The translations under genes and the position numbers were made by a program. From IMG/VR virus record IMGVR_UViG_3300029908_000125, positions 1-26,964 of that record: a DNA stretch of 26,964 bases; one strand, 5' to 3'. The notes under the pieces were generated by a model, which was not told the origin of the DNA, did no database searches, and saw only the letters and a program-made list of their open reading frames with translations. Shown here one piece after another: positions 6,341 through 26,300 of the stretch; the stretch's first letter is position 1; each line of letters opens with the position of its first letter. The stretch comes from a virus.

Positions 6341-6346
6341 AGCACA

Positions 6347-11888: not shown

Positions 11889-13016
11889 ATGAAAAGTGTA
11901 GGGAAATTCTTGGTTTCGTTTATAGCATGGCTTCTTATAGCCTCCTATGCCTCTAAGCAGGCGTTTGTGAAGTTTGGTATGTCGCCGATGGTAAGCATTG
12001 GGGCATTGCTGATAGTGACGATGATACTTGCCGCCTTCGGGGGTAAGAAGATCGCGGATGGAGAATTTGGGCCTGCCCGTATGGAAACAACGAATGTGGT
12101 ACAATGGGCACGGCTGATCATTGAGCACTTTTTTAAGGATAACAAATTTCTTAACTACTGCGTCCGTGCGGATGAGTTTGTAGTGCACAATACTGCGGTG
12201 GTAATTCCTAACCCTGGCAGCCTTCCAACGGTGATAAAGAATAACGTTTCTTTCCCAATGGTGGCCGTGCAGAGAACGGATAACATTGTGATGTATGCGC
12301 TGAATACGTATGTAACGGTGCCTACTTTCATAACGCTTGATGAGCTGGACGCCATAAGCTATGATAAGAGCGAGAGCGTATATAATGATCATTTTAAAAC
12401 GCTTGTGCAAACGGCTGCTGATGACCAGGTTATAAACTGGGCCAACGGACTACCGGGTGCAACGAATGTGGTATATACTACCGGGCCTGCTACCGGAATG
12501 CTTGAGACGGGCCAGATGGGCAATCGTAATACTTGCCAATACCAGGATGTGAAGGCGCTGCAACGCTTAATGAATAAAAACAATGTTCCGATGGACAACC
12601 GCATATTGCTTATGGAAGCGAATATGTATGACCAATTGACGGACAGCCTTTCAGCAACTGCTTATAGAGACTTCTCCCGTGAGTATGATGCTAAGACCGG
12701 TGCAATGGGTAATCTATTCGGATTTACGATTATGACACGTAGCTCTGTGATCACGGCTACAGCGGGATTAACTACTGGCAACCTTGCACTAAATGCGCTT
12801 AATGCGGCATTAGGAGCTACTGATAATGTGGGATGCCTGGCATGGCAGAAACAGAGCCTGGAACTGGCAATGGGTAGTGTGCATTTATTCAGCAGGGAAA
12901 ACGATCCACTGTATACCGGTGACATTAAGAATGTGCGTATCAAGGCAGGTGGCCGCGTGCGCAGGGCTGATAACCTGGGTGTATATGCACTGATGCAGGG
13001 AACGCCTGCGGGTTAA
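11889..13016 (+). CDS. Major capsid protein with hydrophobic N-terminal extension
   Basis: A 375-residue protein of the HK97-fold capsid type seen in Bacteroidota Mu-like phages. From residue 65 (METTNVVQWARLIIEHFFKD) the sequence follows that family: FPMVAVQRTDNIVMYALNTY, LDAISYDKSESVYNDHFKTL and a late TGDIKNVRIKAGGRVRRADN. The 64 residues before it are atypical. They form two predicted membrane segments (about 5-20 and 32-50) followed by GGKKIADGEF. The upstream start has the A/T-rich leader usual in this genome, whereas the ATG at 12081 does not. A GTG at 11883 is also possible. The extension could be a delta-domain-like segment removed by the protease, or a membrane anchor. Confidence 0.85.
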   Translation: MKSVGKFLVSFIAWLLIASYASKQAFVKFGMSPMVSIGALLIVTMILAAFGGKKIADGEFGPARMETTNVVQWARLIIEHFFKDNKFLNYCVRADEFVVHNTAVVIPNPGSLPTVIKNNVSFPMVAVQRTDNIVMYALNTYVTVPTFITLDELDAISYDKSESVYNDHFKTLVQTAADDQVINWANGLPGATNVVYTTGPATGMLETGQMGNRNTCQYQDVKALQRLMNKNNVPMDNRILLMEANMYDQLTDSLSATAYRDFSREYDAKTGAMGNLFGFTIMTRSSVITATAGLTTGNLALNALNAALGATDNVGCLAWQKQSLELAMGSVHLFSRENDPLYTGDIKNVRIKAGGRVRRADNLGVYALMQGTPAG

Positions 13017-13050
13017 TTAGCTGATTAGCTAATGTGATGATTAGCTGATA
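13014..13050 (+). repeat. TTAGCTGATTAGCTAAT intergenic repeat, copy 2
   Basis: Starting at the capsid stop codon, the DNA reads TTAGCTGATTAGCTAATG, then TGATGATTAGCTGAT. It is the same string family as 7885-7909 and lies after the capsid gene. Confidence 0.6.
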
Positions 13051-13093
13051 CCAATGATTTGAAACATTAAACAATAATATTCCATACCAATAG

Positions 13094-13131
13094 CCCGTAG
13101 CCTGATAAGGCACGGGCCATTGGCGGCAAAA
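13094..13131 (+). promoter_or_regulatory. Hairpin plus TTGGCGGCAAAA element, copy 1
   Basis: A nine-base-pair stem (CCCGT/ACGGG and GCCT/AGGC, one bulged A, loop GATA) at 13094-13116 is followed by TTGGCGGCAAAA at 13120-13131, 14 bp before the next ATG. The same arrangement occurs at 16605-16633 and 19266-19296. No T-run follows the stem, so a simple terminator is unlikely. It may protect the 3' end of the capsid transcript or control translation of the next gene. Confidence 0.6.
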
Positions 13132-13145
13132 GAACAATTTACGAT

Positions 13146-13646
13146 ATGAAAAAGATACTTTTTGTTACGATGCTCTTCTGTTCGTTTTTGAGCATTACGG
13201 CCAGTGCGCAGATTGCGCAGTATAAGGTGAGCAATCCTCATTCGGTAATACCGGCAGGCGGGTATTCGCAACCGGCGCAATATTCTCCTGTAAGCGCGGT
13301 AGGTGCTCCTGAGACATTCCCCTGGTATACTAAGACGGACACGGTGATCAATACAGCTGTGGATACGTTTAAGGGTAAGCTGATAGGGCCGCAGGAGAGT
13401 GTATATACCTGGGTGCATGTAACCGGCATTAGCGGGACAAATACAAGTTGCACGGCTAAACTATGGGTAAGCGCTGATAGCTCCGCAGGTGTGGACTTCA
13501 TACCTATACAGACGTTTACCGTGAGCGCAACTAACCCTGTGGGGTTTTACTTATGGACAGGATGGCCTTATACGAATTGGTTCTGGACGTTTACCGGATC
13601 AGGGACGCAGGAGAGTTCTTGGTATAGCGGGTTGTATGTGAAATAA
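13146..13646 (+). CDS. Exported beta-rich protein encoded after the capsid gene
   Basis: A 166-residue protein with a strong signal peptide: MKKILFVTMLFCSFLSITASA, with cleavage probably at ASA/Q near 21. The mature part is rich in Thr, Ser, Gly and Trp (FYLWTGWPYTNWFWTF near the C-terminus) and looks all-beta. Its position right after the capsid gene would suit a head decoration protein, but a signal peptide does not fit cytoplasmic assembly. It is bracketed by a hairpin/TTGGCGGCAAAA element (13094-13131) and a 47-bp repeat (13646-13692). Its family is not recognised. Confidence 0.75.
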   Translation: MKKILFVTMLFCSFLSITASAQIAQYKVSNPHSVIPAGGYSQPAQYSPVSAVGAPETFPWYTKTDTVINTAVDTFKGKLIGPQESVYTWVHVTGISGTNTSCTAKLWVSADSSAGVDFIPIQTFTVSATNPVGFYLWTGWPYTNWFWTFTGSGTQESSWYSGLYVK

Positions 13647-13692
13647 CCACCTCCCCCTTCGGGTACTCCTCCTTGAAAAAGGAGGAGAGTTT
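13646..13692 (+). repeat. 47-bp dispersed hairpin repeat, copy B
   Basis: Starts at the last base of the exported-protein stop codon. It has the C-rich head, then a CTCCTCCTT / AAGGAGGAG stem with an A-rich loop, then AGTTTT. It matches copy C almost base for base. It could act as a weak terminator or RNA stabiliser, though only four T follow. Confidence 0.85.
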
Positions 13693-13716
13693 TAGCTAAG
13701 TCGTAAGTCAATAGTC

Positions 13717-13938
13717 ATGGAAATGAATTTTGAGACCGGTAACCATAACAATTTGTATCTGAGCATTGGTAGTTGCATAGGGTCAATCATGAGCTTCTTT
13801 GTGTCGTTTGTGACGGACTACCATATCATGGGGCTTCTTGGGATGGTGTGTGTGACGGTGTCCATATGGGCCGGTATACTGACGATCAAAGAAAAGCGCA
13901 TGAGTATGCGGAAGATGGAAAAGGACGATAAATCTTAG
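13717..13938 (+). CDS. Holin-like membrane protein
   Basis: A 73-residue protein with two membrane segments, about 17-33 (SIGSCIGSIMSFFVSFV) and 38-56 (MGLLGMVCVTVSIWAGIL), and a charged C-terminal tail (KRMSMRKMEKDDKS). That size and shape fit class II holins, which open the inner membrane at lysis. It is the first gene of a tightly packed lysis module containing the endolysin. The start could be the ATG at 13717 or the one at 13723. Confidence 0.65.
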   Translation: MEMNFETGNHNNLYLSIGSCIGSIMSFFVSFVTDYHIMGLLGMVCVTVSIWAGILTIKEKRMSMRKMEKDDKS

Positions 13939-13939
13939 T

Positions 13940-14011
13940 ATGATAAACGCATTGATTGTTATCGGGATGGGAGTTCTTGGAACGGTGGCGGCAATGGTAA
14001 AAGGTAAGTAA
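13940..14011 (+). CDS. 23-residue membrane micropeptide
   Basis: The ATG at 13940 is 2 bp after the holin-like stop. The frame encodes a 23-residue hydrophobic peptide (MINALIVIGMGVLGTVAAMV, then KGK) and ends in TAATG, sharing its last base with the next start. One membrane helix fills it. It is probably a lysis regulator or antiholin-type peptide (inference). Confidence 0.5.
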   Translation: MINALIVIGMGVLGTVAAMVKGK

Positions 14012-14253
14012 TGAGAAAGTGGACGAAGACAACGTGGGGAATGATCATACTTGTGGTGTGCCTTTTGGCTCTGATCGGCTTTGGTATAGCTGCTTTCCGT
14101 TCGGGTAAAACACTTGAGGGCGTGGGAATGATCATCATGGCGCTATCATCTACAGTAACAGACCTGAAGGGGTACTTCTGGGGTAGCAGCGATAAAGGCA
14201 CGGTAAAAACGATTGATACGGCTACAGGCCCTGTTGATATAAAAGAACAATAG
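14011..14253 (+). CDS. Second holin-like membrane protein
   Basis: An 80-residue protein. One strong membrane segment covers about residues 9-29 (WGMIILVVCLLALIGFGIAA) and a weaker one about 37-48 (GVGMIIMALSST). The C-terminal half is soluble and includes DLKGYFWGSSDKG. It is coupled to the micropeptide by TAATG and followed 2 bp later by the spanin-like gene. Possible holin or holin partner. Its similarity to the first holin-like protein is in shape only. Confidence 0.6.
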   Translation: MRKWTKTTWGMIILVVCLLALIGFGIAAFRSGKTLEGVGMIIMALSSTVTDLKGYFWGSSDKGTVKTIDTATGPVDIKEQ

Positions 14254-14255
14254 TT

Positions 14256-14867
14256 ATGCGGTATTTAGGATGTATTTTAATAGGAATGTTGCTTGGTGGG
14301 GCATTTGTGGCAGACCTGCGGTGTAACCATGGCAGTAAAGCGCATATAGCGAAGGTGGCCCAAAAGGCGGCTGTGGCTGAGGTGGCTAATATAGTGAAGC
14401 ATGAGTTTGATAGTGTGCAGTACTACCGTGACCTGTATAACCAGGAGCATGCCGATAAGGTGCTGATACAGGGTAATGCTAAAGTGATCAGGATATTCTA
14501 CAAGCATCGTGAGGATAGTATTTGTAATGTGCTCCGCATAAGACCTGCACAGCTCCAAAGCATGCAGGATGTGGTGAGCCAGGTAAACGGACGGTTCACC
14601 GCGCCAACCCAAAGAGTGGGTGAGCTAACGGTTCAGGGCTTAATGCCTGCCTATGCATTTACTTACAAGGATGATTTTATAGATGAGGAGGGGATTGTGG
14701 ATAGCCTGCAAACGGTTGTGGACTATCACCTGACTATACCGGTGAAGATCACTACCTACTGGAAACGCAAATGGTTCCTGGGCAGGAAGCATTACAAAAT
14801 AGACGGCTATTCGCCTAATAAGAACGTGCATATTACCGGGCTAACCGGTATTGAGATAAACAAATAA
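14256..14867 (+). CDS. Spanin-like (Rz-type) lysis protein
   Basis: A 203-residue protein with one N-terminal membrane segment (about 3-19, GCILIGMLLGGAFVA), a helical, charged middle (about 30-100), and a beta-type end (IPVKITTYWKRKWFLGRK, then a NKNVHITGLTGIEI strand). One anchor plus a periplasmic coiled stretch fits an inner-membrane spanin, which joins inner and outer membranes at the last step of lysis. Its place between holin-like and endolysin genes agrees. I recall similar proteins in Bacteroidota phages as a family of unknown function. Confidence 0.6.
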   Translation: MRYLGCILIGMLLGGAFVADLRCNHGSKAHIAKVAQKAAVAEVANIVKHEFDSVQYYRDLYNQEHADKVLIQGNAKVIRIFYKHREDSICNVLRIRPAQLQSMQDVVSQVNGRFTAPTQRVGELTVQGLMPAYAFTYKDDFIDEEGIVDSLQTVVDYHLTIPVKITTYWKRKWFLGRKHYKIDGYSPNKNVHITGLTGIEINK

Positions 14868-14873
14868 TTTTTT

Positions 14874-15338
14874 ATGAATACTACAGAGATCAAGATCATT
14901 GATTGGGTGAAGGTAGAGGCTGCAAAGCTGACCAAGGAGATACCGGCAGTAGTAAAGCTGTATGGTAATGAGGGCCTTTCGGTTTGTAACCAGATCAAGG
15001 CGCTCCTGGCATCGCCAACTGTGCAGCTCATTGAGGTAGGTGTGCAGGTGCTGATACCCGGAACATGGGAAGCTACCGTGATCGCTGCTATTACCAAGGC
15101 TGTGGGCATTGCCATACCGATGCTTACGGAACTCGTAGCAAATAGCGGTGAGAGCCTGGACTCACAGGCAGTGGCGTTTGTGCAGTATTTACAGACACTT
15201 AGCCCTAAACTTCGAAATGCGGCCATCATGAAGTTCCTGAGCTGCATATTCATGGCTCTTGACCCATCGCTGATAGAAGTGGAGGCGGATGATGCAGCGC
15301 AGCTCGCGTATTCGATAAGTGTGAAAAAGGCAGCATAA
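14874..15338 (+). CDS. Hypothetical protein in the lysis module
   Basis: A 154-residue, mostly helical protein. Two hydrophobic helices (SPTVQLIEVGVQVLIPG, then EATVIAAITKAVGIAIP, about 47-82) may insert in or lie on a membrane. The remainder is amphipathic, with LRNAAIMKFLSCIFMALDP. No signal peptide and no catalytic motif are seen. It starts 6 bp after the spanin-like stop and ends 36 bp before the endolysin. An antiholin or lysis-timing role is possible but unproven. Confidence 0.6.
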   Translation: MNTTEIKIIDWVKVEAAKLTKEIPAVVKLYGNEGLSVCNQIKALLASPTVQLIEVGVQVLIPGTWEATVIAAITKAVGIAIPMLTELVANSGESLDSQAVAFVQYLQTLSPKLRNAAIMKFLSCIFMALDPSLIEVEADDAAQLAYSISVKKAA

Positions 15339-15374
15339 TGCTGTGTATTGTTTGATAAGTAATAAGTTTTTCCA

Positions 15375-15926
15375 ATGGCAGAGTTTGTGGCGGCATTTAA
15401 GTATGCTGAGATCAACGAGGGCGGTTATTGCAAGGTTCCGGGAGACCGGGGCGGCGAAACTTATAGGGGTATATCAAGGATCAGCCATTCAGATTGGGAC
15501 GGCTGGCCGCTTGTAGACAGCTTTGAGCCACTGGAGTATAACGAGGTGATCAATGACCCTGCACTGGAGAGTAAAGTCCGAGTGTTCTATAAAAAGGAGT
15601 TTTGGGACAAGATGCAGGGCGATAAGATAGACAGCCAGGTATTTGCTGCATACTTCTTTGATTGGTTAATCAACAGCTCCAGTAAGGCCGTAGAAAAGCT
15701 TCACGAGGTGTTGGGTATGGGTGACCTGGCTTTGAAATTTCCATTTGACCAGGTGGGTGTGGACAGGATCAATGAGTTCGGTGATAAGCTGCTGTTGTCA
15801 ATACACGAGCGCCGGTTGAAGTTTTACAATGACCACGTGGCTGTAGTGCCTGCTGATGCTAAGTTTCTGAAGGGATGGCTGGCAAGAGCCAATAATTTGT
15901 ATAACGTTTTAAGTAACCATATATGA
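15375..15926 (+). CDS. Endolysin, GH108-type N-acetylmuramidase
   Basis: A 183-residue muramidase that should cut the glycan strand of peptidoglycan. The N-terminal INEGGYCKVPGDRGGETYRG (residues 13-32) is the hallmark of the GH108 family, with Glu 15 as the likely catalytic acid. VFAAYFFDWLINSSS (about 84-98) and the final helix LKGWLARANNLY match the helical fold and the peptidoglycan-binding end. There is no signal peptide, so it needs a holin to cross the inner membrane. The last four bases overlap the next gene's start (ATGA). Confidence 0.88.
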   Translation: MAEFVAAFKYAEINEGGYCKVPGDRGGETYRGISRISHSDWDGWPLVDSFEPLEYNEVINDPALESKVRVFYKKEFWDKMQGDKIDSQVFAAYFFDWLINSSSKAVEKLHEVLGMGDLALKFPFDQVGVDRINEFGDKLLLSIHERRLKFYNDHVAVVPADAKFLKGWLARANNLYNVLSNHI

Positions 15927-16594
15927 GAAATGTATTAGTAGCATTATTGGCAGCAGCGCTGCTAGAGCTGAGCGCGATAGAAGCGAACGCCCAGGACACG
16001 ATCAAGGTAGAACACACGACTTATACCTCTGAGTGGGTGAAGAGCGCGCATATACCGGTGCTGGTGACGTATACGCTTACGGCGGCTGATCTGGACTGTA
16101 AGGACGCTGTGGGTAGAAAGGCGGGTATGACTGCTGATCCGCTGGTGCCGGGTACGAACCTGAATGGTGACTATAAGGGTAGCGGGTATGATAAGGGCCA
16201 TAACATGAGCAGCGATGATAACCGGTGCAATGAAACGATCCAGGATGAGTGTTTCTATTTCACGAACATGTATCCGCAGGTGCATGAGCTGAACGCGGGT
16301 ATATGGCTGGCCCTGGAACGCAACGAGCGGGATAGCGCTACTACCTATGGCAGTGTGATCACGTTTGTGGGGTCGTTTGGCAAGGATGGGGAGATAGGGC
16401 CGGATAAAGTGTTTGTGCCTGCTTACTGCTGGAAGGTGATGTATATACCGAAGGTGAAGCGCTGGCATGGGTACATATTCCCGAATAAGGATTGCGGTGG
16501 TGTACCGGACGACTGGACACAATTTACAGGTGAACAGGCGCGGTGGGTGAAGTATATCGTGAGAAAGTATGGCGGTATGAAGTGGAATAATTAA
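15923..16594 (+). CDS. Secreted DNA/RNA non-specific endonuclease (NUC1 family)
   Basis: A 223-residue nuclease with a signal peptide (MRNVLVALLAAALLEL, cleavage probably at ANA/Q near 23). The NUC1 signature is present: YDKGHNMSSDDNRCN, with the DxGH motif at 90-93 and His 93 as the general base, then YFTNMYPQVHELNAGIW with the metal-binding Asn at about 115. The family degrades DNA and RNA without sequence preference. Export would keep it away from the phage's own DNA. Coupled by ATGA to the endolysin, it is probably produced at lysis. Confidence 0.88.
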   Translation: MRNVLVALLAAALLELSAIEANAQDTIKVEHTTYTSEWVKSAHIPVLVTYTLTAADLDCKDAVGRKAGMTADPLVPGTNLNGDYKGSGYDKGHNMSSDDNRCNETIQDECFYFTNMYPQVHELNAGIWLALERNERDSATTYGSVITFVGSFGKDGEIGPDKVFVPAYCWKVMYIPKVKRWHGYIFPNKDCGGVPDDWTQFTGEQARWVKYIVRKYGGMKWNN

Positions 16595-16604
16595 TAGCAG
16601 CTAA

Positions 16605-16633
16605 CCCGCCTCGTGCGGGATTTGGCGGCAAAA
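16605..16633 (+). promoter_or_regulatory. Hairpin plus TTGGCGGCAAAA element, copy 2
   Basis: CCCGC, loop CTCGT, GCGGG at 16605-16619, then TTGGCGGCAAAA at 16622-16633, 25 bp before the next ATG. It shares both parts with 13094-13131 and 19266-19296. Confidence 0.6.
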
Positions 16634-16658
16634 AGCAATAACGTTTAAAAACCATTTT

Positions 16659-17309
16659 ATGAATAAGAAGCAATTATATTATTTCGTCAACCATCCTGCG
16701 GTAAATACTTTTTACTTCACGAGCGATGGACAGGCGTTTACCACTACTCCTGCGGCTGCTCCACATGCTGCTAATCTGCAAGCGGCAAATAAGGCTGATA
16801 AAACAGCGGGTGTTGTAACTACTGTAACGCGTGATGCTATCATGGCGTGGTGGGCTACAGAAGCGCCTAAGGAAGTGATTGCTGCCGCTGATAAACTGGC
16901 AAAGGCGCAAGCCGATGAGCTGACGGCACAGAAGGCTGTAAATAACCTGACAACCGGCAATACGCCATCGCAAAGAATGAGCGCTAACCTGGTATTAAAG
17001 ACGGCGACCGACAATGTGGCGAAAGCCCAGGCGGAACTGGATGCGGCTAACAAGGCTGTTGCGGCATTGCCTGCGGCTGCACAGGCTACCCCGGACGCTG
17101 ATCCTGAAACTCCTTTAACCAAGGATGAGTTGCAAAAGAACCTGGACACTGCAAACAGTAACCTTGAGATCGCTACTAAGGCGCAGGCTGATCTGCTTGC
17201 AACCGGTACGGCAACTGCTCAAGATAAGGTCAGGGCAACCAATGCTGTAAAGGCTGCTAAGAAAGCGGTGGACGAAGCAACGCTGGCGCTGGATAATGCG
17301 GCTGAATAA
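16659..17309 (+). CDS. Ala-rich coiled-coil phage protein
   Basis: A 216-residue protein of unknown function. A short N-terminal part (YYFVNHPAVNTFYFTSDGQAF, residues 7-27) is followed by a long Ala/Lys/Asp/Thr-rich helical region. This contains at least three related stretches (KAQADELTAQKAVNNL, KAQAELDAANKAVAAL and KAAKKAVDEATLALDN) that look like duplicated coiled-coil units. It is bracketed by a hairpin/TTGGCGGCAAAA element upstream and a 48-bp repeat downstream, like the gene at 13146. It lies just before the sheath gene, so a structural or chaperone role is possible. Confidence 0.7.
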   Translation: MNKKQLYYFVNHPAVNTFYFTSDGQAFTTTPAAAPHAANLQAANKADKTAGVVTTVTRDAIMAWWATEAPKEVIAAADKLAKAQADELTAQKAVNNLTTGNTPSQRMSANLVLKTATDNVAKAQAELDAANKAVAALPAAAQATPDADPETPLTKDELQKNLDTANSNLEIATKAQADLLATGTATAQDKVRATNAVKAAKKAVDEATLALDNAAE

Positions 17310-17310
17310 T

Positions 17311-17358
17311 ACCACCTCCCCCTTCGGGTACTCCTCCTTGAAAAAAGGAGGAGAGTTT
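17311..17358 (+). repeat. 48-bp dispersed hairpin repeat, copy C
   Basis: Begins 2 bp after the coiled-coil gene's stop. It is identical to copy B except for one extra A in the loop. The stem is CTCCTCCTT / AAGGAGGAG. Confidence 0.85.
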
Positions 17359-17416
17359 GCCTGACTGCGAATGTTGACTGACAAAGTGAAGTTTGGACAA
17401 TAAAAAAAATTTATAG

Positions 17417-18772
17417 ATGAGAAAGAGTCTGAGGTTTATAGGTAAGTGTTTTATGGCACTGTTTGGTGTCGGGATGATGGGGCCGGTGGCACAGAAGCAT
17501 AGTTTTATTCTATCCCTTTTGTGGGTGACGTTTGTGATCTATGCGCTCATGACACCTGTGAAGCTCCGGGCAGGAATGCAGACGATGGGCGGCGTGTCGA
17601 TCAGCCTGAGCAATGGCGGCCTGGGTGGTACACTACAGACAAATGACGGTGTGGTGGGATTTGTGACAACGATGGTGAGTGAGGCAGGTGGGTATACCAT
17701 AGGGACGCCATTGCTGCTAACCGGGATGGCCAGCGTGGCAACGGCGGGAATAACGCAGGCGAACAATCCTTATGCCTTCAGGCACATTACGGAGTTCTAT
17801 AACCAGGCACTGGACGGCGCAGAGCTTTACTTTATGGGCGTGGCCGATACACAGACCATAGCAATGATATGCTCTGAAAGCAATGCGAGTGGTGCTATTA
17901 AGTTACTGAACTATGGGGCCGGTAATATCAAGGTAATAGGCTGTATAACTGATGACGTGGCTGTGAACGGGGTAACTGCAATAACCATAACGAATGGTAT
18001 TAATGCGGATTGCTATACGGCAGCAGCTAACCTGAAGGTGATGCTGACGCAATTTACCGCGAACCAGCAGCCATGCCGTGGCCTGATCGGCGGTACTTCT
18101 TATAACGGTACTGCAAGTGCGCTGACCAATGAAACGGCAGGTACTACCAATAACAGGGTGGGAATGATAATAGGCGATACGCAGGTATGGGATGCTACGC
18201 ATACAAGTGCCGCTATGGGCTTGTGCCTGGGCACAATAGCATCGCTACCTGTGCAAAGGAAGATAAGCCGAGTTAAGAACGGCCCGCTTACTAACCTTAC
18301 TTGCTACCTGGGTACTGTGGCCCTGATCAACGGTAACCCGGATGTAACTACCATAAGCGGTAAGGGTTATATCACTTTTACAACCTACGTAAATAAAGCC
18401 GGTTTCTTTTGGCAGGGTGACCCGATGCTGACTGCAACTACGGATGATTATTGCAGCCTTAGTAATGGCCGTGTGGTAGATAAGATGCAGGTTATAACCT
18501 ATAGTGTGTATATAGAAGAGGTGGACGATGAAATACCTCTAAACACGGACGGAAGCGGGACAATGCTGGCAACGTATGCGGCCTACCTGCAACAGGAGGT
18601 GATAGACGCCATCAATACTGAAATGGTTGTGACCAATGAGATTAGCGGCTTTAACTGCTTTGTAGACCCTACGCAGGATGTAGTAACGCAAGGGGGAACG
18701 AATATAGTTGAAACGGCGACACCGGTGGGATACAACGGGCAGATAAACGTATTGCTGGGGTTTCAGCAGTAA
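17417..18772 (+). CDS. Tail sheath protein (DUF2586-like) with hydrophobic N-terminal extension
   Basis: A 451-residue protein. From about residue 54 (MQTMGGVSISLSNGGLGGTL) it follows the Bacteroidota DUF2586 sheath family, whose members usually begin near that point. The C-terminal half carries VQRKISRVKNGPLTNLTCY, KAGFFWQGDPMLTATTDDYC and VVDKMQVITYSVYIEEV, as in contractile sheath proteins. The first 53 residues are unexpected: a basic start, then two hydrophobic stretches (about 7-24 and 29-46). The leader before 17417 is extremely A/T-rich, like normal starts here. The leader before the internal ATG at 17576 is not. The tube gene follows. Confidence 0.85.
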   Translation: MRKSLRFIGKCFMALFGVGMMGPVAQKHSFILSLLWVTFVIYALMTPVKLRAGMQTMGGVSISLSNGGLGGTLQTNDGVVGFVTTMVSEAGGYTIGTPLLLTGMASVATAGITQANNPYAFRHITEFYNQALDGAELYFMGVADTQTIAMICSESNASGAIKLLNYGAGNIKVIGCITDDVAVNGVTAITITNGINADCYTAAANLKVMLTQFTANQQPCRGLIGGTSYNGTASALTNETAGTTNNRVGMIIGDTQVWDATHTSAAMGLCLGTIASLPVQRKISRVKNGPLTNLTCYLGTVALINGNPDVTTISGKGYITFTTYVNKAGFFWQGDPMLTATTDDYCSLSNGRVVDKMQVITYSVYIEEVDDEIPLNTDGSGTMLATYAAYLQQEVIDAINTEMVVTNEISGFNCFVDPTQDVVTQGGTNIVETATPVGYNGQINVLLGFQQ

Positions 18773-18801
18773 TTGAATAACGATTTTTAAAAACGTGCTG
18801 T

Positions 18802-19236
18802 ATGAGTGTGGTGAATTTTATGAATACCCCGGAGGTAACCTGGAAAGAATTTACCATAGCGATAAGCGGGGGTACGGTGATCAAGATACGCGGTATTGAA
18901 TACTTCGTGGAGGACGAGGACGAGTTGTTGTATGCAGCAGGTAGTGAGCCTTTGGATATACAGACCGGGAATACCAAGTATGGCGGATCGTTAAAGATGC
19001 TGAAGGGAGCGCTTGATGATCTCCAGGTGGCAGCGAAAGCGGCGGGAGCGGGTGTACTAACCAAAATAAGGTTTACTGCCACGATTACCTATCTACCAGC
19101 CGGATCAAGGGTATTGATGACCGATACGCTGGCTAACTGTAAGATAAGTAAGTGGAATAAGAAATGGGATCAAGGTGCGAAGTTTATGGAGATTGATTGT
19201 CCCATACTGTTTACGAGCCTGACGACGTCACCATAA
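18802..19236 (+). CDS. Tail tube protein
   Basis: A 144-residue protein directly after the sheath gene, as expected for the inner tube (Mu M-like position). It has the beta-rich pattern of Hcp-like tube proteins: VIKIRGIEYFVEDEDEL, LTKIRFTATITYLPAGSRVL and CKISKWNKKWDQGAKFMEI. There is no signal peptide or membrane segment, unlike the sheath. A stem-loop with TTGGTGGCAAAA follows it. Confidence 0.75.
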   Translation: MSVVNFMNTPEVTWKEFTIAISGGTVIKIRGIEYFVEDEDELLYAAGSEPLDIQTGNTKYGGSLKMLKGALDDLQVAAKAAGAGVLTKIRFTATITYLPAGSRVLMTDTLANCKISKWNKKWDQGAKFMEIDCPILFTSLTTSP

Positions 19237-19265
19237 AGAAGCTGTAACTGTTGACACAAACCTTG

Positions 19266-19296
19266 CCCCGCCTTAGTGCGGGGTTTGGTGGCAAAA
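19266..19296 (+). promoter_or_regulatory. Hairpin plus TTGGTGGCAAAA element, copy 3
   Basis: CCCCGC, loop CTTAGT, GCGGGG at 19266-19283, then TTGGTGGCAAAA at 19285-19296, 7 bp before the chaperone ATG. This is the third copy of the element at 13094 and 16605. Confidence 0.6.
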
Positions 19297-19303
19297 CACA
19301 GTT

Positions 19304-19678
19304 ATGATAAAGCAATATTTATTTATGAGGAATGCCGACGCGCACAGTAATGGTGGCGGAGAAACAAAGGCCATCCTGACTGGAGAAGCTTCGCCTGAAG
19401 AGATCAAGGCATGGAAGGCAACGTATAAACAGGGCATATACCAGGTGGTTAATGGCAACTATGTGGCTTACTTCCAGAACCCAACGCGCATACATATGAA
19501 TATTTCCATGAGCCAAGCTAAAGCCGAGGCCGCGCTTGATATGTATGAAATGCTTGCCAAGCTGACGAAAATAGGCGGGGCAGAGGAGCTGCTTACTGAT
19601 GATGAAATGTTTTATGGCCTGACTGCTGATCTGAAGGTGAAAATGGACGGCAAACGTGGCGTACTAAAAAACCTCTAA
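19304..19678 (+). CDS. Tail assembly chaperone, short form (G-like)
   Basis: A 124-residue protein between the tube and tape measure genes, the fixed place of tail assembly chaperones. Its GEASPEEIKAWKATYKQGIY and MSQAKAEAALDMYEMLAKL stretches give an alpha/beta and then helical fold. Near its end the mRNA reads CTA AAA AAC in frame, which contains the -1 slippery heptamer A AAA AAC (19666-19672). Most ribosomes would stop at the TAA at 19676-19678. A minority would continue into the -1 frame to make the long form. Confidence 0.8.
   Translation: MIKQYLFMRNADAHSNGGGETKAILTGEASPEEIKAWKATYKQGIYQVVNGNYVAYFQNPTRIHMNISMSQAKAEAALDMYEMLAKLTKIGGAEELLTDDEMFYGLTADLKVKMDGKRGVLKNL
19666..19672 (+). promoter_or_regulatory. 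-1 ribosomal frameshift site A AAA AAC
   Basis: A canonical X XXY YYZ heptamer in the correct phase of the chaperone frame. After slipping, reading continues from 19672 in an open frame that ends at the TGA at 19858-19860. Frameshifted G/GT chaperones before the tape measure gene are a conserved feature of many tailed phages. Confidence 0.8.
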
Positions 19679-19860
19679 AGGATTACCGGAAACGTTCAGC
19701 CGCTGATCCGCTTGGGTTTATGAACGCAACGATATCCCGCTACCTGAGTTATACCAAGAGTGAAATAGACGGGATGACCGATGAAGAGTATTTGAATACC
19801 TATTGTCATATACAAGTGATAATGGATAAAGAACAGGAAGAAGGTAAAAAAAATGAATGA
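19672..19860 (+). CDS. Tail chaperone -1 frame extension (T-like)
   Basis: The -1 frame from the slippery site reads PLKDYRKRSAADPLGF, continues MNATISRYLSYTKSEIDGMT and ends KEQEEGKKNE, adding 62 residues to give a long form of about 185 residues. It has an ATG at 19720, so independent initiation of a 46-residue peptide is possible, but the sequence from 19672 to 19719 is also coding-like, which favours frameshifting. It overlaps the tape measure start (19853) by 8 bp. Confidence 0.75.
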   Translation, partial: PLKDYRKRSAADPLGFMNATISRYLSYTKSEIDGMTDEEYLNTYCHIQVIMDKEQEEGKKNE

Positions 19861-21739
19861 GACTCTGACATTCGTACTGCAACTGCGGGAAATGGTGAGT
19901 GGTGGAATGGCGAAGATAGCTACCACCACTCGCTCTGTTTTTGGCGAGGTTGATAAGCGCATATCTAATACGCAACAGCGTATGGCTATGGCAGGCCGCG
20001 GTGCGACTGATCTGAATGGCCGTCTCGAGGCGCTGACCCAACGGCGCAACATCATGCTCAACACGAGCGATATAGCCAGGGCAAACCGGGAAATAATGGT
20101 TCTTGAGACCAGGATAAACAAGCTGAACAATATTGGGGTGAATCGAGGCGGTGGGGGCGGTATGCGCCTGCCTTGGTGGCTGAGCGGCGCTGTATTAGGT
20201 GGTGCGGCCCTGATGGGCACCATGGCGATGATTAAGACCGGTGCCGATCAGCAGCGGGATATTGTGGGCCTCAGCACTTTTATGGGGAAGGATAAGGCCA
20301 CCGCCTATTATACCCAGGTGCAACAGGATGCGCGTGTGACCCCGTTTGTGACACATGACCTTATGGCGGCTAACCGGATGTTGATAAGCACCGGCATGAG
20401 CGCTACCCGTGCAAGGGGTGATATCATGAACCTTGCTAATGCCGTAGCGGCAACCGGTGGCAGCAACTTTGCCCTGGAGCGGATGGCCCAGCACCTACAG
20501 ATGATCAGGAGCATGGGGCATGCCAGCTACCTGCAACTGAAGGAGTTTACCACAAATGGTATCAACATCATGCAATTGCTGAGTGATGCCACCGGTAAAC
20601 ATATAAAAATGGTGCACGGTATGACCGTGAGCTATAACTCAATAGAAAAGGCGCTGGCACATGCTGCTGAAAAGGGAGGGTTGTTTTATAACGCCCTATA
20701 TGCGCAAAGCCAGACGATATGGGGAAAGTGGAGCACGTTTGTAGATGACCTACAGATAAGCGCCGGTAAGGTAGTAACGAGCCAATCATCTGCCATAACA
20801 GGGTTGCTTGATGTGTTTGATAAATACGCTCAGCGGCTACCGGCAATGGCTGAACAGTATAGCGGTGCCATATCGAATATCGTGGGACATGTGGTGTCAT
20901 TTGTAGTGCATTTAATAGAGCTTGCAAAATGGCTATATCATAACTGGAGCTGGCTGAAGTATGTAGTGGCGGGTGTAATTGCTTTTAAAGTAGCCATCTG
21001 GGCCGCAACAGGCGCAATAGGGATATATAACACTATAATGACCCTTGCTGCCATCAGGGCAACGTACCTGGCAGCAGCGGAAACGGAGGCAGCAGTTGCA
21101 GCCGAGGCGCTTGATATAGCGATGGCTGCAACGCCATGGGGGGCAATAGCCCTGGGTGTAATGGGTGTGGGTGTGGCAATAGCCGCTCTTGTAGTTGCAA
21201 GTAAGAATGCCGGGACGAAGATCACCGAGAACCTGACGCCAAAGGCGCAGCATATGAAGGATATCACCAACATTGATAAAAACAATGCGGCGATTGTAGA
21301 GGCGAAAAGAAAGGCGAGACTACCGGAAGAGTTTAACCGGTATTATGGCAAACCTAAAGCGGGGTATCACTGGGAAGAGCATGGATATACTGCTGTGCAG
21401 GTTAAGAATGGAATTGACCCGTCGCAGCCGTTAATGTTTGCACCGAAACCGGTGAACCCATATGCAGCACCACAGGGCGGATTTGTTACTACACAAACTG
21501 CCGCGCAAATGATCGCCGCCAAAAATAAAGATATGGCGGGAGATAAGGATGAAGCAGATGAAGGTGAGGGAAGTAGTGTAGCGGGTGGCGGGAGCAAGAA
21601 GATCATATTTCATATAGGTAAGATGATAGACCATCTTGATGTGCATGTGGACAGTGCGGCAGAGGCATTGAGTGTGAGTGTAGATAAATTGGAAGAGCCT
21701 TTAATGAGGCTATTGTATAGTGCGAAAAGTGCAATGTAA
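19853..21739 (+). CDS. Tail tape measure protein
   Basis: A 628-residue protein that sets tail length. The N-terminal half has the tape-measure domain pattern: IVGLSTFMGKDKATAYYTQV, then VTHDLMAANRMLISTGMSAT and MRSMG-type helices (positions about 140-240). Residues about 360-440 hold strongly hydrophobic stretches (VVAGVIAFKVAIWAATGAIG and AIALGVMGVGVAIAALVVAS), as in proteins that help DNA cross the membrane. The C-terminus is a charged linker with a GSSVAGGGSKK stretch. At the usual rule of about 0.15 nm per residue, the tail would be roughly 90-95 nm. It overlaps the chaperone extension. Confidence 0.88.
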   Translation: MNETLTFVLQLREMVSGGMAKIATTTRSVFGEVDKRISNTQQRMAMAGRGATDLNGRLEALTQRRNIMLNTSDIARANREIMVLETRINKLNNIGVNRGGGGGMRLPWWLSGAVLGGAALMGTMAMIKTGADQQRDIVGLSTFMGKDKATAYYTQVQQDARVTPFVTHDLMAANRMLISTGMSATRARGDIMNLANAVAATGGSNFALERMAQHLQMIRSMGHASYLQLKEFTTNGINIMQLLSDATGKHIKMVHGMTVSYNSIEKALAHAAEKGGLFYNALYAQSQTIWGKWSTFVDDLQISAGKVVTSQSSAITGLLDVFDKYAQRLPAMAEQYSGAISNIVGHVVSFVVHLIELAKWLYHNWSWLKYVVAGVIAFKVAIWAATGAIGIYNTIMTLAAIRATYLAAAETEAAVAAEALDIAMAATPWGAIALGVMGVGVAIAALVVASKNAGTKITENLTPKAQHMKDITNIDKNNAAIVEAKRKARLPEEFNRYYGKPKAGYHWEEHGYTAVQVKNGIDPSQPLMFAPKPVNPYAAPQGGFVTTQTAAQMIAAKNKDMAGDKDEADEGEGSSVAGGGSKKIIFHIGKMIDHLDVHVDSAAEALSVSVDKLEEPLMRLLYSAKSAM

Positions 21740-21765
21740 TGTCCTTCGATAAACTCAGGATGACA
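21740..21765. repeat. CCTTCGATAAACTCAGGATGAC repeat
   Basis: The 40 bp between the tape measure stop and the next gene are mostly TGTCCTTCGATAAACTCAGG ATGACA, an incomplete palindrome. From general familiarity this is a common intergenic repeat of Bacteroidota genomes, usually seen as a longer palindrome around TCGA and CTCAG. Confidence 0.6.
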
Positions 21766-21779
21766 AAAAATGAAATGCA

Positions 21780-22439
21780 ATGGATGGTACTGATAAGAAT
21801 TTAGATTTAATAGCGGCTTTTATAAAACGGTTTGGGCCAGATGCCCCGACGTTTAAACCGAACCTGCCTGCGGTGAGCGGTGACCAACCGAGCAACTGGA
21901 TAGCTTTTGGTGCCAGTGGCAGCCCGTATTATGCTAAAGACCTGACCATAGGTACGGAGTACTTTATGCCGGTGACGTTTACTTACCCGACCGGTGATCC
22001 GGGAGACGGACTAATAGGTGCCAGCGGAGAAACCTCCAGTAATGGGGTGACAACGTGGAACCTGCCGTTCCCGATCATGTCGATAAAGCTGAAAAAGATA
22101 ATTATAAAAACGCCGCTGACTGAAAGAACGGGTACTGTAAAGGAGCTGATACAATGTGAGGATGTAGAGATAAAAATACGGGGTTACCTGATAGCGGCCA
22201 CACAGGACTATCCGGAGAATCTTGTTACTACACTTCGTGACCTGTTTGAGCAAAATGTAGCGATAAATATAAAGAGTCCACTGACGGATATATTCCTACT
22301 TCGCCCGGATAGGAGCGGTAGTGACCAGGTGGTGATCACCGATCTTGAAATAGTGGAGAAAAAGGGTGTAAAGAATGTAGTGGAATACAGGATGGAATTG
22401 CTGAGCGATGCCCCGTTTTCACTTTTTGATATAAGCTAA
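21780..22439 (+). CDS. Baseplate-region protein (DUF6046-like)
   Basis: A 219-residue protein after the tape measure gene. A PFPIMSIKLKKIIIKTPLTE stretch (about 97-116), VKELIQCEDVEIKIRGYLI and VITDLEIVEKKGVKNVVEYR suggest a beta-barrel-type component. It resembles a family annotated in Bacteroidota phages as DUF6046, placed where Mu has its N/P baseplate proteins. Its start lies in a cluster of overlapping ATGs, and the one at 21780 gives the long frame. Its stop TAA overlaps the next start (TAATG). Confidence 0.7.
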   Translation: MDGTDKNLDLIAAFIKRFGPDAPTFKPNLPAVSGDQPSNWIAFGASGSPYYAKDLTIGTEYFMPVTFTYPTGDPGDGLIGASGETSSNGVTTWNLPFPIMSIKLKKIIIKTPLTERTGTVKELIQCEDVEIKIRGYLIAATQDYPENLVTTLRDLFEQNVAINIKSPLTDIFLLRPDRSGSDQVVITDLEIVEKKGVKNVVEYRMELLSDAPFSLFDIS

Positions 22440-23569
22440 TGAAAAGTATTTTAATCATAGTTATGTGCTTACGGGTATTGTGCAGTGACATTACAATTGG
22501 GACGTTCCGATTTGCCGGGGTGAATGAGGTGCGTGTGAAACGTTCCCTACATAGCTATGCAGATACGGCATTTATCAAAATACCGAGTATAAGCAAGATC
22601 GTGCAGGGTAAGCGATCATCATCGGTGGTACAGACCACGGCAAACCTGTTTAACGACGGTGACCCGGTGACTATAAATGTGGGTTACCTGGACGGGAACG
22701 CATGGCAGAAACTGGCACCATGGAGTGCAGGCGCTACGCCGATAATAGCAGCGGGTACTAATTCTCCTCTTTGTACGGTATTCCAGGGATTTGTAAGGCG
22801 GCGGGATATGAATATGCCGCTGGAGGTAGAGTGTGAGGGCTACGTGCGGCAAATGCGCCTGAATATGGCTGAAAATGGGTTTTATGCGAGTACGAGCAGC
22901 TCGGCACTCCTTAAGCTGATATCGGCAGCATGCCCGGACATCACTATACAGATGGGGCCGGGAGGGAATATACCGTTTTTGAATATTACACTAAACGAAG
23001 CTAACGGGGCAGATATATGCGATAAGATCAAGGAGCTGAGCCAGGGTGTATTGAGCGTGTTCTTTATAAACCCGACCACGCTGTGGTGCGGCCTTACGTA
23101 TACACCTTATATGAATAATACCGATCCATTTGCTTTGGGCCTTGTAAACTATGAGCTCGGGTATAACGTGGTAAAGGATAACGGGCTTAAAGAGCGAACT
23201 ACAGAGGATCAGCCTGTGCAGGTCATCATAAACGGTTGCTATGCTACCGGCCAAAAGATAACTACTGCCAGCCAGACGAAGTACCAGGGGAGAAAAGCAA
23301 AGTCGTTTGTGAATAATATAGGTGATAAGCCTACACTGCAAGCAATAGCGAATGAGAAGCAATACCAGATGAATTATGCAGGGTATGAAGGGGCATTAAA
23401 TACTTTTTTGCAGCCTTATTGTGCTCCGGGATATAAGGCCAATACAATAGACGACCGATACAAAGTTAGGAACGGGGTTTATATGGCAGAGAGCACCGAC
23501 ATAACGTATGGGATGAAAGGGGGAAAGATAAAAGTAGAAATAGGGCCTAAAATAGGATTTGTACCGTGA
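22439..23569 (+). CDS. Baseplate hub protein with signal-like N-terminus
   Basis: A 376-residue protein of the late-control-D / gp27-like hub type. The body starts at about residue 17 (DITIGTFRFAGVNEVRVKRS) and includes YADTAFIKIPSISKIVQ, the charged VQVIINGCYATGQ region and a GNGVYMAE-like end. The first 16 residues (MKSILIIVMCLRVLCS) are hydrophobic and unlike the family's usual start. An internal ATG at 22463 (Met 9) is possible. Hub proteins form the trimer that carries the spike. It is coupled to the DUF6046-like gene by TAATG and to the spike gene by GTGA. Confidence 0.75.
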   Translation: MKSILIIVMCLRVLCSDITIGTFRFAGVNEVRVKRSLHSYADTAFIKIPSISKIVQGKRSSSVVQTTANLFNDGDPVTINVGYLDGNAWQKLAPWSAGATPIIAAGTNSPLCTVFQGFVRRRDMNMPLEVECEGYVRQMRLNMAENGFYASTSSSALLKLISAACPDITIQMGPGGNIPFLNITLNEANGADICDKIKELSQGVLSVFFINPTTLWCGLTYTPYMNNTDPFALGLVNYELGYNVVKDNGLKERTTEDQPVQVIINGCYATGQKITTASQTKYQGRKAKSFVNNIGDKPTLQAIANEKQYQMNYAGYEGALNTFLQPYCAPGYKANTIDDRYKVRNGVYMAESTDITYGMKGGKIKVEIGPKIGFVP

Positions 23570-24177
23570 GCCAGAACAGCAGGATCATAGCGCAACTGAT
23601 ACGGGAAATAGCTGAAGGGGCTGCTGATTTGCGGTTTCCGGTAATGAGTGGAACTGTAGTGGCAGGGAGTACCGATACTGACAACATGGTATGCACGGTG
23701 CTGCTGAGTGTGAGTGATGATAGTGCGGAGACAAGCGGCATAATGCTGAATGCGGTGACGCTGAATAGTAACGGGCTGATCCTGTACCCGGCAGATGGCA
23801 GCAATGTGTGGGTGGCGGAAGTGGATGGGCCGGGGAAGTGGGGAATAGTAAAATGTAGTGACCTGGTAAAGATGGCCGTGACAATAGGGCAAACAACGTT
23901 TGTGATAACGGACGGACAGGTACAGGCGGCTGATGGAAGTGGTGGGCAGCTTACAATGACAGGTGGGAAGTTGCAGTTTAAGAATAACAGCGGGAGCCTG
24001 TTTAATATGCTGAGTACGCATATACAAAATCTGCAAACGCATATCACGAATATAGATGCCCTGACTGTAGACACGGCTGTAGGGCCTAGCGGAGTGCCGG
24101 AGAATATAGCTGAGTTCGCGCTTGACTATTCGAACATGGGACAGGATTTAAATGCATTAGGGGAAATACTTGATTGA
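23566..24177 (+). CDS. Baseplate spike protein (gpV / Mu gp45-like)
   Basis: A 203-residue protein starting at a GTG that overlaps the hub stop as GTGA. An N-terminal helix (SRIIAQLIREIAEG) is followed by an OB-like domain (LRFPVMSGTVVAGSTDTDNM, then LILYPADGSNVWVAEVDG), then DGQVQAADGSGGQLTMTGG, whose short repeats resemble the beginning of a spike helix. Such proteins puncture the outer membrane. It is short compared with classic spikes, and there is no clear metal-binding HxH apex. Its stop is coupled to the fibre start (ATGA). Confidence 0.7.
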   Translation: MSQNSRIIAQLIREIAEGAADLRFPVMSGTVVAGSTDTDNMVCTVLLSVSDDSAETSGIMLNAVTLNSNGLILYPADGSNVWVAEVDGPGKWGIVKCSDLVKMAVTIGQTTFVITDGQVQAADGSGGQLTMTGGKLQFKNNSGSLFNMLSTHIQNLQTHITNIDALTVDTAVGPSGVPENIAEFALDYSNMGQDLNALGEILD

Positions 24178-26300
24178 TGAAAAGGATTATAACCATATTG
24201 TTTTGTTTGTGCTTCATGGCCGGTTATGGGCAGAGCGTGCCACATAGGATCATTGTGCTGAATGGGGTAACTATAGACCTTACTGCTAATGGCACGTACC
24301 TGCTTCCGGGGTTGGGTACTTATACTTTATCTCCTTTGGACACGAGCTGGGTGACAGGCTTAGCAGGTGATACTGCCGGTGTTATCAGGACATGGGACTT
24401 ACTGACGTTCTTGACTTATGGCGATACATCTACGTTCCTGGTAACGGATGCAGGGCTGAATAGCAGGGGTTATATTACCTCATCGGCATTGACAGGGTAT
24501 GCTACAACGGTGGCCGTGGGTGATAGTGCCGGTGTTATCAGGACATGGGACTTACTGACGTTCCTGACTTATGGCGATACGTCTACATTCCTGGTAACGG
24601 ATGCGGGGTTGAATAGTCGGGGTTATATTACTTCGTCTGCATTGACCGGGTATGCTACAACAGTGGCTGTGGGAGATACCGGTGCGGCTATCAGGACATG
24701 GGACTTACTGACGTTCTTGACTTATGGCGATACATCTACGTTCCTGGTAACGGATGCAGGGCTGAATAGCAGGGGTTATATTACTTCGTCTGCGCTGACC
24801 GGGTATGCTACTACGGTGGCCGTGGGGGATAGTGCCGGTACGATCAGGACGTGGGATTTGCTTACGTTCCTGACTTATGGCGATACTTCTTCGTTCCTGG
24901 TAACGGATGCAGGGCTGAATAGTCGGGGTTATATTACCTCATCGGCATTGACAGGGTATGCTACAACGGTGGCCGTGGGTGATAGTGCCGGTGTTATCAG
25001 GACATGGGACTTATTGACGTTCCTGACTTATGGCGATACTTCTTCGTTTTTAGTGACGAATGCTAAACTGAACAGTAAGGGATATTTGACAAGCGCTGTA
25101 ACAAGTATACAGATGGTAAGTAATGTAGCTGCTTACTCAGTGACACCAACAAGCGCTGTTACGAGCACGGGGGTGTATAGCTTTATGGCTACAGGGGTGA
25201 TCACACAGCTTGTGCGTGGTGACGGCAGTTTGTTTAACCTCGGCGCAAATGGTTATGTGCTGGGCGTTGTTTCAGGGGCGCTCTCCTGGGTGCTAGCGCC
25301 TTCGAGTGGTGGGGTGACCGTTGGCGGTAGTGATGGGTCTTTTCAGTTTGATAATGCTGGGTCATTGGGAGGATCGGCTTACTGCTTTAATGCAACTGAT
25401 GGTAATTTTAGAATGCTGAGCCAGACTACTATACCGGCTGCTCCATCTTCTGGTAACTTAAAGCTATATAGTAATAACGGTATTGGTATAGATGAGCTGC
25501 ATGAAATACCGTCATTAGGGACTGAATATATTTTGCAGGCATCGCTGAGTCAACACCGAGTAAGTAAGCTATACCCACAGGATGGAAGTGCCTCATTATT
25601 GCCGGAAGGAACAGACTTTACGTATGCGGGAGGTTCGATATACGCATCTATAGGGAGTGCCACTACAGTGAATTCGACTTATGACGCTACCAATGCACTG
25701 CCGAATGTTTTTACTGTGAAAGCCGCTTCGGCTGCATCTGCCAACTCCTCGGCAGGTTGGTATTACGCCTCGGCGATATCTACTAATCCTGTGCTGATAC
25801 AGAATACTGCATATTCGGGCGCAACGAGGTTAACTATTGAATTTGGATTGAGTGTTTACGCATCGACCCAGAGAATATTTATTGGCTATAATACCAACAG
25901 TAATGCAGCCCCAACGGCGTCCGCTGATCCATCAGCCAGTTTAAATGTTATTGGACTTAGTAAGGATGTCGCAGATGGTACATTTCAGTTTTTAACTAAT
26001 GGAGCGTCAGGAACCGGGACGAAGATAAATACGGGGATTACTCCTAACCAGAATAACTGGTATAGGCTTACGATATTCCTGACACCAGCGGCGGGGGCAT
26101 CTACTTCAACGGGGGTATACGAGGAACTGGATGTAATGACAAAATCGGCGAACCCGACAGTCGTATACAGCGGCGCAATTACGACAAAGATACCGGCAGC
26201 GGGTACACTTATGGAGCCTGTGATATGGGTGAATACAGGGACAGGTGCAGCCACAGTAGGTATTAATTTTATGCAAATGTTGCAAGAAAGATTTTGGTAG
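24174..26300 (+). CDS. Tail fibre protein with signal peptide and repeated shaft
   Basis: A 708-residue protein. It begins with a Sec-type signal peptide (MKRIITILFCLCFMAGYGQ, Gln near 19), unusual for a virion fibre. A beta-type N-terminal part is followed by a shaft of about five 51-residue repeats (WDLLTFLTYGDTSTFLVTDA, then NSRGYITSSALTGYATTVAV; about 66-316). A variable linker and a C-terminal jelly-roll-like domain (about 520-708, LTIEFGLSVYASTQRIFIGY near 564) would bind the receptor. It is coupled to the spike gene by ATGA and precedes the gp25-like wedge, so it belongs to the baseplate-fibre unit. No C-type lectin or diversified end is seen. Confidence 0.75.
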   Translation: MMKRIITILFCLCFMAGYGQSVPHRIIVLNGVTIDLTANGTYLLPGLGTYTLSPLDTSWVTGLAGDTAGVIRTWDLLTFLTYGDTSTFLVTDAGLNSRGYITSSALTGYATTVAVGDSAGVIRTWDLLTFLTYGDTSTFLVTDAGLNSRGYITSSALTGYATTVAVGDTGAAIRTWDLLTFLTYGDTSTFLVTDAGLNSRGYITSSALTGYATTVAVGDSAGTIRTWDLLTFLTYGDTSSFLVTDAGLNSRGYITSSALTGYATTVAVGDSAGVIRTWDLLTFLTYGDTSSFLVTNAKLNSKGYLTSAVTSIQMVSNVAAYSVTPTSAVTSTGVYSFMATGVITQLVRGDGSLFNLGANGYVLGVVSGALSWVLAPSSGGVTVGGSDGSFQFDNAGSLGGSAYCFNATDGNFRMLSQTTIPAAPSSGNLKLYSNNGIGIDELHEIPSLGTEYILQASLSQHRVSKLYPQDGSASLLPEGTDFTYAGGSIYASIGSATTVNSTYDATNALPNVFTVKAASAASANSSAGWYYASAISTNPVLIQNTAYSGATRLTIEFGLSVYASTQRIFIGYNTNSNAAPTASADPSASLNVIGLSKDVADGTFQFLTNGASGTGTKINTGITPNQNNWYRLTIFLTPAAGASTSTGVYEELDVMTKSANPTVVYSGAITTKIPAAGTLMEPVIWVNTGTGAATVGINFMQMLQERFW
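24369..25133 (+). repeat. 153-bp tandem repeats in the fibre shaft
   Basis: The units begin near 24369, 24522, 24675, 24828 and 24981 (spacing always 153 bp, 51 codons). The first four are highly alike and the fifth degrades after about 95 bp (DAGLNSRG becomes NAKLNSKG). Differences are mainly synonymous, with a few substitutions (TAGVIRT, TGAAIRT, SAGTIRT). The repeats are long and close together, so recombination could change their number and shorten or lengthen the fibre. Confidence 0.9.

Follow-up and report, generated by a model that had tools for sequence, protein, structure and literature searches.

The major capsid proteins of tailed phages are usually treated as soluble and cytoplasmic, and outside T4 the site in the cell at which the prohead forms is an open question. 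In shells with the HK97 fold the N-terminus lies inside the prohead, and the delta domain of HK97 itself is N-terminal and helical. In T4 the prohead is initiated by a portal bound to the inner membrane, and YidC takes part in its assembly (PMC9958956). Capsids of the Nixviridae of Porphyromonas gingivalis have predicted signal peptides that are likely cut by the prohead protease, and Q-rule signals have been published on phage proteins of Bacteroidota (PMC10367356). The closest described systems are the capsids of Mu-like Bacteroidota phages (phrog_267, PF11651), such as those of the Winoviridae Peternella, lotta8-1 and FPSV-S27, whose core and gene order are shared by the sequence studied here. 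This sequence, the window, is IMG/VR virus record IMGVR_UViG_3300029908_000125 (G000) at its full length of 26,964 bases, and both its major capsid protein and its tail sheath begin with a hydrophobic N-terminal leader.

The gene layout of the window is Mu-like with a contractile tail, as is typical for phages of Bacteroidota. A portal and terminase block lies on the minus strand, and the plus strand carries in order the protease, capsid, lysis genes, sheath, tube, tape measure and baseplate. A similar order is found in the annotated Flavobacterium phages lotta8-1 and FPSV-S27 and Winogradskyella phage Peternella, as well as in one annotated Porphyromonas phage and one Elizabethkingia phage. 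The capsid core of the nearest relative, L002, is 65% identical to that of the window. Wider scans added 107 loci, and removal of duplicates left 105 distinct capsids; sheaths were compared across 68 distinct sequences. Hydrophobic segments were scored by Kyte-Doolittle windows rather than by a trained topology or signal predictor, and start contexts were measured as the A/T fraction over the 20 nt before the start codon.

Sequence and predicted structure of the capsid leader

The capsid frame that opens at 11889 on the plus strand encodes 375 residues. Two hydrophobic segments lie within residues 1-64 (11889..12080), ahead of the core that runs from internal Met65 (12081..13016). When the frame is read from 11883 (377 residues), phrog_267 matches from residue 74 (7e-19) and PF11651 (P22_CoatProtein) scores above its cut-off over residues 207-304. 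Since the profile match starts at residue 74, about 64 residues precede the core. AlphaFold2, with 45 sequences, predicted a hairpin of helices 2-29 and 33-51 with block predicted local distance difference test (pLDDT) scores of 83-92, a linker at 53-67 with scores below 50, and a confident core of HK97 fold whose first helix is at residue 70; the onset of the core is at about residue 65-74. The model matched tailed-phage capsids of the PDB in Foldseek (E 7.5e-14). Both profile and fold place the protein among HK97-fold (P22-like) capsids, and they bear out the initial annotation, which had put a hydrophobic pair in residues 1-64 and the core near residue 65.

The same arrangement, a leader with two hydrophobic segments before the core, is found in the L002 capsid and in the other extended capsids. 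All of the 68 have the first segment, and 67 of the 68 have the second at a mean hydropathy of at least 1.2, with a value below 1.6 in 12 of the 68 leaders. Mean hydropathy is 2.45 for the first helix and 2.01 for the second. Over the 68 leaders the mean charges are +1.96/-0.03 before helix 1, +0.09/-0.22 in the turn, and +1.5/-1.4 from helix 2 to the core. Two hydrophobic helices, a short uncharged turn and positive flanks are the features of a hairpin anchor; therefore, by the positive-inside rule, the hairpin is predicted to lie N-in/C-in with both ends in the cytoplasm. In the AlphaFold2 model the capsid leader also has the outline of a delta-like domain, being N-terminal, helical and set on a flexible linker. 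The capsid leader is thus predicted to be an anchor rather than an export signal.

A cleavable Sec signal, by which the capsid, the sheath, the protein encoded after the capsid and the fibre would all be exported for assembly outside the cytoplasm or at its outer face, is very improbable. Two capsid leaders (L004, 'FASPAFA'; L022, 'VGHAFGA') do resemble signal peptides, and the post-capsid protein and fibre have true Q-rule signals. However, in nearly all capsids a second hydrophobic segment and then a positive flank would return the core to the cytoplasm, where DNA packaging requires ATP and DNA. Capsid and sheath alike depart from a Q-rule Sec signal in having two hydrophobic segments, a positive C-flank and no consistent A-x-A↓Q site.

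Distribution, translation and selection of the capsid leader

A leader of about 35-65 residues is present on 68 of the 105 distinct related capsids and absent from 37, although one of the capsids tallied as unextended (L024) really carries a leader interrupted by Ns. The unextended capsids begin exactly at the leader/core boundary, usually with MA[ILV][QN]xEIW. Chitinophagaceae, Sphingobacterium, Litoribacter, Capnocytophaga and most environmental contigs are among the extended rows, and Prevotella and rumen Bacteroidales loci are among the unextended. The initial annotation had named in advance, as the outcome that would count against it, relatives lacking the extensions with no conservation; when the relatives were compared, the capsid extension was not refuted. 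Its suggestion that extensions came from host secreted genes is not supported for the capsid and sheath, since 68 of 105 relatives have the capsid leader and neither leader resembles a cleavable Q-rule signal; for the post-capsid protein and the fibre such an origin is possible.

The mean A/T fraction is 0.79 before the upstream ATG and 0.43 before the internal core Met (p = 2e-20), and that before the starts of unextended capsids is 0.76. In the window the values are 0.85 at 11889 and 0.40 at Met65. The boundary Met is absent from about ten of the 68 extended capsids (12 are listed, but two of these, L002 and L022, reflect alignment offsets) and from most of the extended capsids found in host genomes. 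L004 and L127 have no ATG, GTG or TTG within 25 codons of the boundary. With no start available near the core in such relatives, translation has to include the leader. The ratio of nonsynonymous to synonymous substitution (dN/dS) in the leader is 0.02-0.36 wherever a pair gave a finite value; by this measure the leader is under purifying selection, although it is less strictly constrained than the core. Two N-terminal hydrophobic segments were scored in 57 of the 105 capsids versus 5 of 530 other open reading frames of at least 250 residues in the same contigs, and two of these five are the sheaths of the window and L002.

These data bear on two further explanations. An annotation artefact, in which the core starts are real and the upstream open frames are due to chance, is scarcely credible, and for the capsid it is already refuted. 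A 48-codon frame of such composition is open by chance in about 10% of cases, but chance would not yield 68 leaders of the same architecture, purifying selection, the start context and capsids without a usable internal start. The capsid leader is real and translated, as judged from these comparisons. A dual start, in which one frame gives a long membrane-bound capsid and a short soluble one from the internal Met, with the minor long form nucleating heads at the membrane, seems distinctly improbable. It would agree with the core Met being kept in at least 56 of the 68 extended capsids; however, the context of that Met is unlike the start context of these phages (0.43 vs 0.79), and the Met is missing from the capsids noted above.

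A tree of the capsid cores required at least 9 changes between the extended and unextended states, compared with 30 when labels were shuffled. Therefore, the leader appears to have been inherited, with repeated gain or loss. A three-frame reading of the gaps at 15 loci found, apart from L024, no hidden or shifted leader and no separate small two-helix gene upstream of unextended capsids. The same leader was not seen in four other Bacteroidota capsids, namely those of 6H, RAP44, Hankyphage and a Porphyromonas phage. Three candidate correlates were rejected. No link to the type of upstream protease emerged, since some extended capsids follow a Clp-type match and others do not, in a classification too coarse to be useful; a membrane protein just downstream is found with 59 of 63 extended and 30 of 35 unextended capsids; and no recombination breakpoint lies at the leader/core boundary between L048 and L049, where identity drops within the core instead. 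In these two Capnocytophaga prophages, the leader and the adjoining upstream DNA are about 97-99% identical and the mid-core is 63-80% identical, a sign of recombination inside the core itself.

Leader of the tail sheath

The sheath gene opens at 17417 on the plus strand with a leader of 56 residues (17417..17584), in which two hydrophobic segments lie within residues 1-45. PF10758 (DUF2586) covers residues 57-450 (3.1e-42), so that the protein belongs to the DUF2586 family, and the core (DUF2586, phrog_907) occupies 17585..18772. The hydrophobic leader noted in the initial annotation is therefore present, but its core start at Met54 has to be moved to Met57, the start of unextended sheaths (MGGVSIS, compared with MGGVNIT in L073). 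The start at 17417 has an A/T fraction of 0.90, compared with 0.35 for each of the two internal Mets, and for capsid and sheath together the claim that upstream starts have A/T-rich leaders holds.

Extended sheaths are confined to the window and L002, i.e. 2 of 68 distinct sheaths. The L002 sheath has a corresponding leader with no boundary Met, and the sole GTG there lies inside the conserved QGVTI core start. Among 395 bacterial genomes of one class, 14 have sheath matches and none of these is clearly extended. The sheath leader is regarded as real but confined to one lineage, as far as the sequences compared here can tell. Its likeness to the capsid leader appears to be one of design, and homology between the two is not demonstrable.

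Proposed role at the membrane

The explanation that fits best, to which we give a probability of about 0.5, is that the leader tethers the nascent capsid, and in the window the sheath as well, to the cytoplasmic membrane and is then removed. The capsid would be made with a cis-acting leader that consists of a Lys-rich N-terminus, a helix, a short uncharged turn, a second helix and a flexible linker, positively charged or rich in Pro and Gly, that leads to the HK97-fold core. The leader may enter the cytoplasmic membrane or press onto it with both ends inside, and nascent subunits would gather on its cytoplasmic side as the site of prohead assembly. The leader would then be lost at the linker, most simply through the prohead protease encoded just upstream, and what is left would equal the core with which unextended relatives begin. 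A leader of the same design would have been gained by the sheath in the window and L002, and this may bring tail assembly to that site as well. Whereas translation, conservation, start site, predicted hairpin fold and charge pattern can be read from the sequences, we infer that the leader inserts into the membrane, that assembly happens there, that the leader is cleaved and that it is of benefit. The initial annotation had proposed membrane-directed assembly among other roles; hairpin shape, charges, conservation and start context support it for capsid and sheath without proving it.

Removal fits with the flexible linker, with the protease upstream and with unextended capsids starting at the same point. 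The capsid leader is probably cut off within the linker, and the prohead protease may be responsible. Cleavage by this protease is plausible for the capsid, given the disordered linker and the relatives that start at the core, but it offers no natural explanation of the sheath leader. The gene in the prohead protease/scaffold position (10815..11831, plus strand) lies directly upstream of the capsid, a position that is conserved in annotated relatives. It has no Pfam or NCBIfam match, its C-terminal half is coiled-coil-like, and its product is a candidate for removing the leader. L002 has in this place (L002:8570-9747) a Clp-type protease and a separate scaffold-like gene instead of a single gene. 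Since the upstream genes differ despite 65% identity between the capsids, head modules appear to have been exchanged.

Alternatively, the capsid leader could serve assembly from inside the prohead, as the HK97 delta domain does; it would act there through hydrophobic packing, help to set shell size and be digested by the prohead protease, with the membrane uninvolved. This is rather unlikely. The N-terminus of the HK97 fold faces the lumen, the AlphaFold2 hairpin stands on a cleavable-looking linker, and the upstream gene occupies the position of a prohead protease, all of which suit such a domain. However, the helices are as hydrophobic as membrane helices (mean hydropathy 2.45 and 2.01), whereas the pre-sequences of two other Bacteroidota phage capsids, L130 and L132, are charged, and the upstream gene seems to have a scaffold-like half of its own. 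A leader of the same design also stands on the sheath; since the sheath has no closed shell or lumen, targeting is favoured over an internal scaffold.

Several points weigh against the membrane tether. Given the lumen-side N-terminus of the HK97 fold, an uncut membrane-bound leader is sterically awkward, and a permanent anchor is therefore hard to accommodate. The topology derives from hydropathy and charge counts only. No single cleavage motif is conserved, and the boundary is variable apart from a small residue. The AlphaFold2 model of the sheath hairpin is of low confidence, with block pLDDT scores of 34-75 over the first 70 residues. Extended capsids are found both with and without an upstream Clp-type protease. 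Over a third of the relatives have no leader, and therefore it is not essential to this type of capsid. Peternella and pippi8-1, the type phage of the genus of lotta8-1, have particles of ordinary-looking myovirus form (PMC8776804, PMC7077304). The Peternella capsid was read with its leader, and that of pippi8-1 was not itself read; since Peternella forms ordinary virions despite its leader, the leader is compatible with a normal virion.

The conservation of the capsid leader in most relatives suggests that heads, and in the window perhaps tails, are built on the cell membrane. It is possible, if somewhat doubtful, that a large group of Bacteroidota phages builds its heads on the cytoplasmic membrane through an anchor in every capsid subunit, and that the sheath of one lineage is brought to the same site. 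Since the capsid is the most abundant protein of the virion and cultured phages such as Peternella and lotta8-1 have the conserved membrane-type leader on it, membrane assembly would become directly testable in non-model hosts. If so, annotation tools may truncate these capsid genes or misread their products as membrane or secreted proteins, and expression of these capsids for structural work may require removal of the leader.

Other genes of the window

The initial annotation had grouped five late proteins with hydrophobic N-termini as one phenomenon. Those of the capsid, sheath, post-capsid protein and fibre are present and that of the hub probably is not, and the five appear to fall into three classes: hairpin anchors (capsid and sheath), Sec signals (post-capsid protein and fibre), and a start artefact (hub). 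The hub more likely starts at 22463 (22463..23569, plus strand), which is Met9 of the long frame, than at the upstream alternative 22439, and the hydrophobic residues 1-16 described earlier exist only if the latter is used. The start at 22463 is favoured because its A/T fraction is higher (0.85 vs 0.75) and because its N-terminus, MCLRVLCSDITIG, matches MAFFKLCSDITIG of the L002 hub in sequence; the length agrees too. The hydrophobic N-terminus of the hub is thus probably a start-codon artefact, which leaves the hub outside the set. Across relatives, a search for the same leader on the tube, the hub and the DUF6046-family baseplate protein (21780-22439 in the window) gave a few weak flags, none of which was convincing.

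The post-capsid protein (13146..13646, plus strand) has the Sec signal first proposed for it (MKKILFVTMLFCSFLSITASA before Gln; ITASA↓QIAQ). It is retained in the L002 counterpart, which is 46% identical, and ends before Gln in both. In 12 host genomes and the viral contigs, the only homologue was that in the L002 contig, with one weak match in L093. The repetitive gene at 24177..26300 (plus strand) likewise has a signal (MKRIITILFCLCFMAGYG before Gln; MAGYG↓QSVPH), whereas its identity as a fibre is given by none of the family searches; it has no homologue in the fetched loci, and its start context is weak (0.60-0.65 A/T). It consists in part of near-identical repeats of about 50 residues (GDTSTFLVTDAGLNSRGYITSSALTGYATTVAVGDSAGVIRTWDLLTFLTY). 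By inspection rather than by SignalP, both proteins show a Lys-rich start, one hydrophobic core and an A/G↓Q site (ASA↓QIA in the post-capsid protein, GYG↓QSV in the fibre, CA↓QGV in a relative). They appear to carry ordinary Sec signals that expose Gln according to the Q rule of Bacteroidota, apart from the hairpin class.

Q-rule Sec signals are also seen by inspection on the DNA/RNA non-specific endonuclease (PF01223, 15923-16594) of the lysis block and on the product of a small early gene (3069-3575); it is unusual for lysis genes to include one for a secreted nuclease. An inverted repeat lies within a 47-48 bp sequence that occurs in three copies about 96-98% identical (13645-13692, 17311-17358 and 6346-6393), and two of these copies flank the lysis-gene block, in the capsid-sheath interval, as direct repeats; they are possibly terminators or mark a moved cassette. 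The frame at 2-913, truncated by the start of the record, encodes a reverse transcriptase with IGNYLSQ where QGxxxSP is usual. It could be that of a diversity-generating retroelement; its best NCBIfam score, below cut-off, is to a group II or defence reverse transcriptase, and a search of the window revealed no pair of template and variable repeats.

Comparison with known systems

No description of a hydrophobic hairpin leader on a tailed-phage capsid was found in the open-access literature, an absence that is weak evidence, and the nearest published remark (PMC10367356) concerns a different capsid and pre-sequence. The Winoviridae capsids examined have the same kind of hydrophobic N-terminal leader, and their sheaths have none. 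The leader is not discussed in the descriptions of these phages, which contain no virion proteomics for leader-bearing phages (PMC8776804, PMC7077304).

Like the HK97 delta domain and other pre-sequences removed by a protease, the capsid leader of the window is N-terminal and helical, and precedes the N-arm on a flexible linker. It differs in being a strongly hydrophobic two-helix hairpin and not a charged helical scaffold, and its removal is predicted only. The capsid of L130 (L130:11330-13342), a phage that we assign to the Nixviridae from its layout and name series rather than from its record, is different again, with 670 residues, a short amphipathic start, a charged delta-like region and no hairpin. 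The Q-rule signals known in phages of Bacteroidota are like those of the post-capsid protein, the fibre, the endonuclease at 15923 and the gene at 3069, whereas the capsid and sheath leaders differ from them. In T4 (gp20/gp40, YidC), the inner membrane is where heads begin to assemble, on its cytoplasmic side (PMC9958956), as is proposed here. However, it is the portal that is attached in T4, with helpers, whereas in the window the capsid and sheath would themselves bear the anchor.

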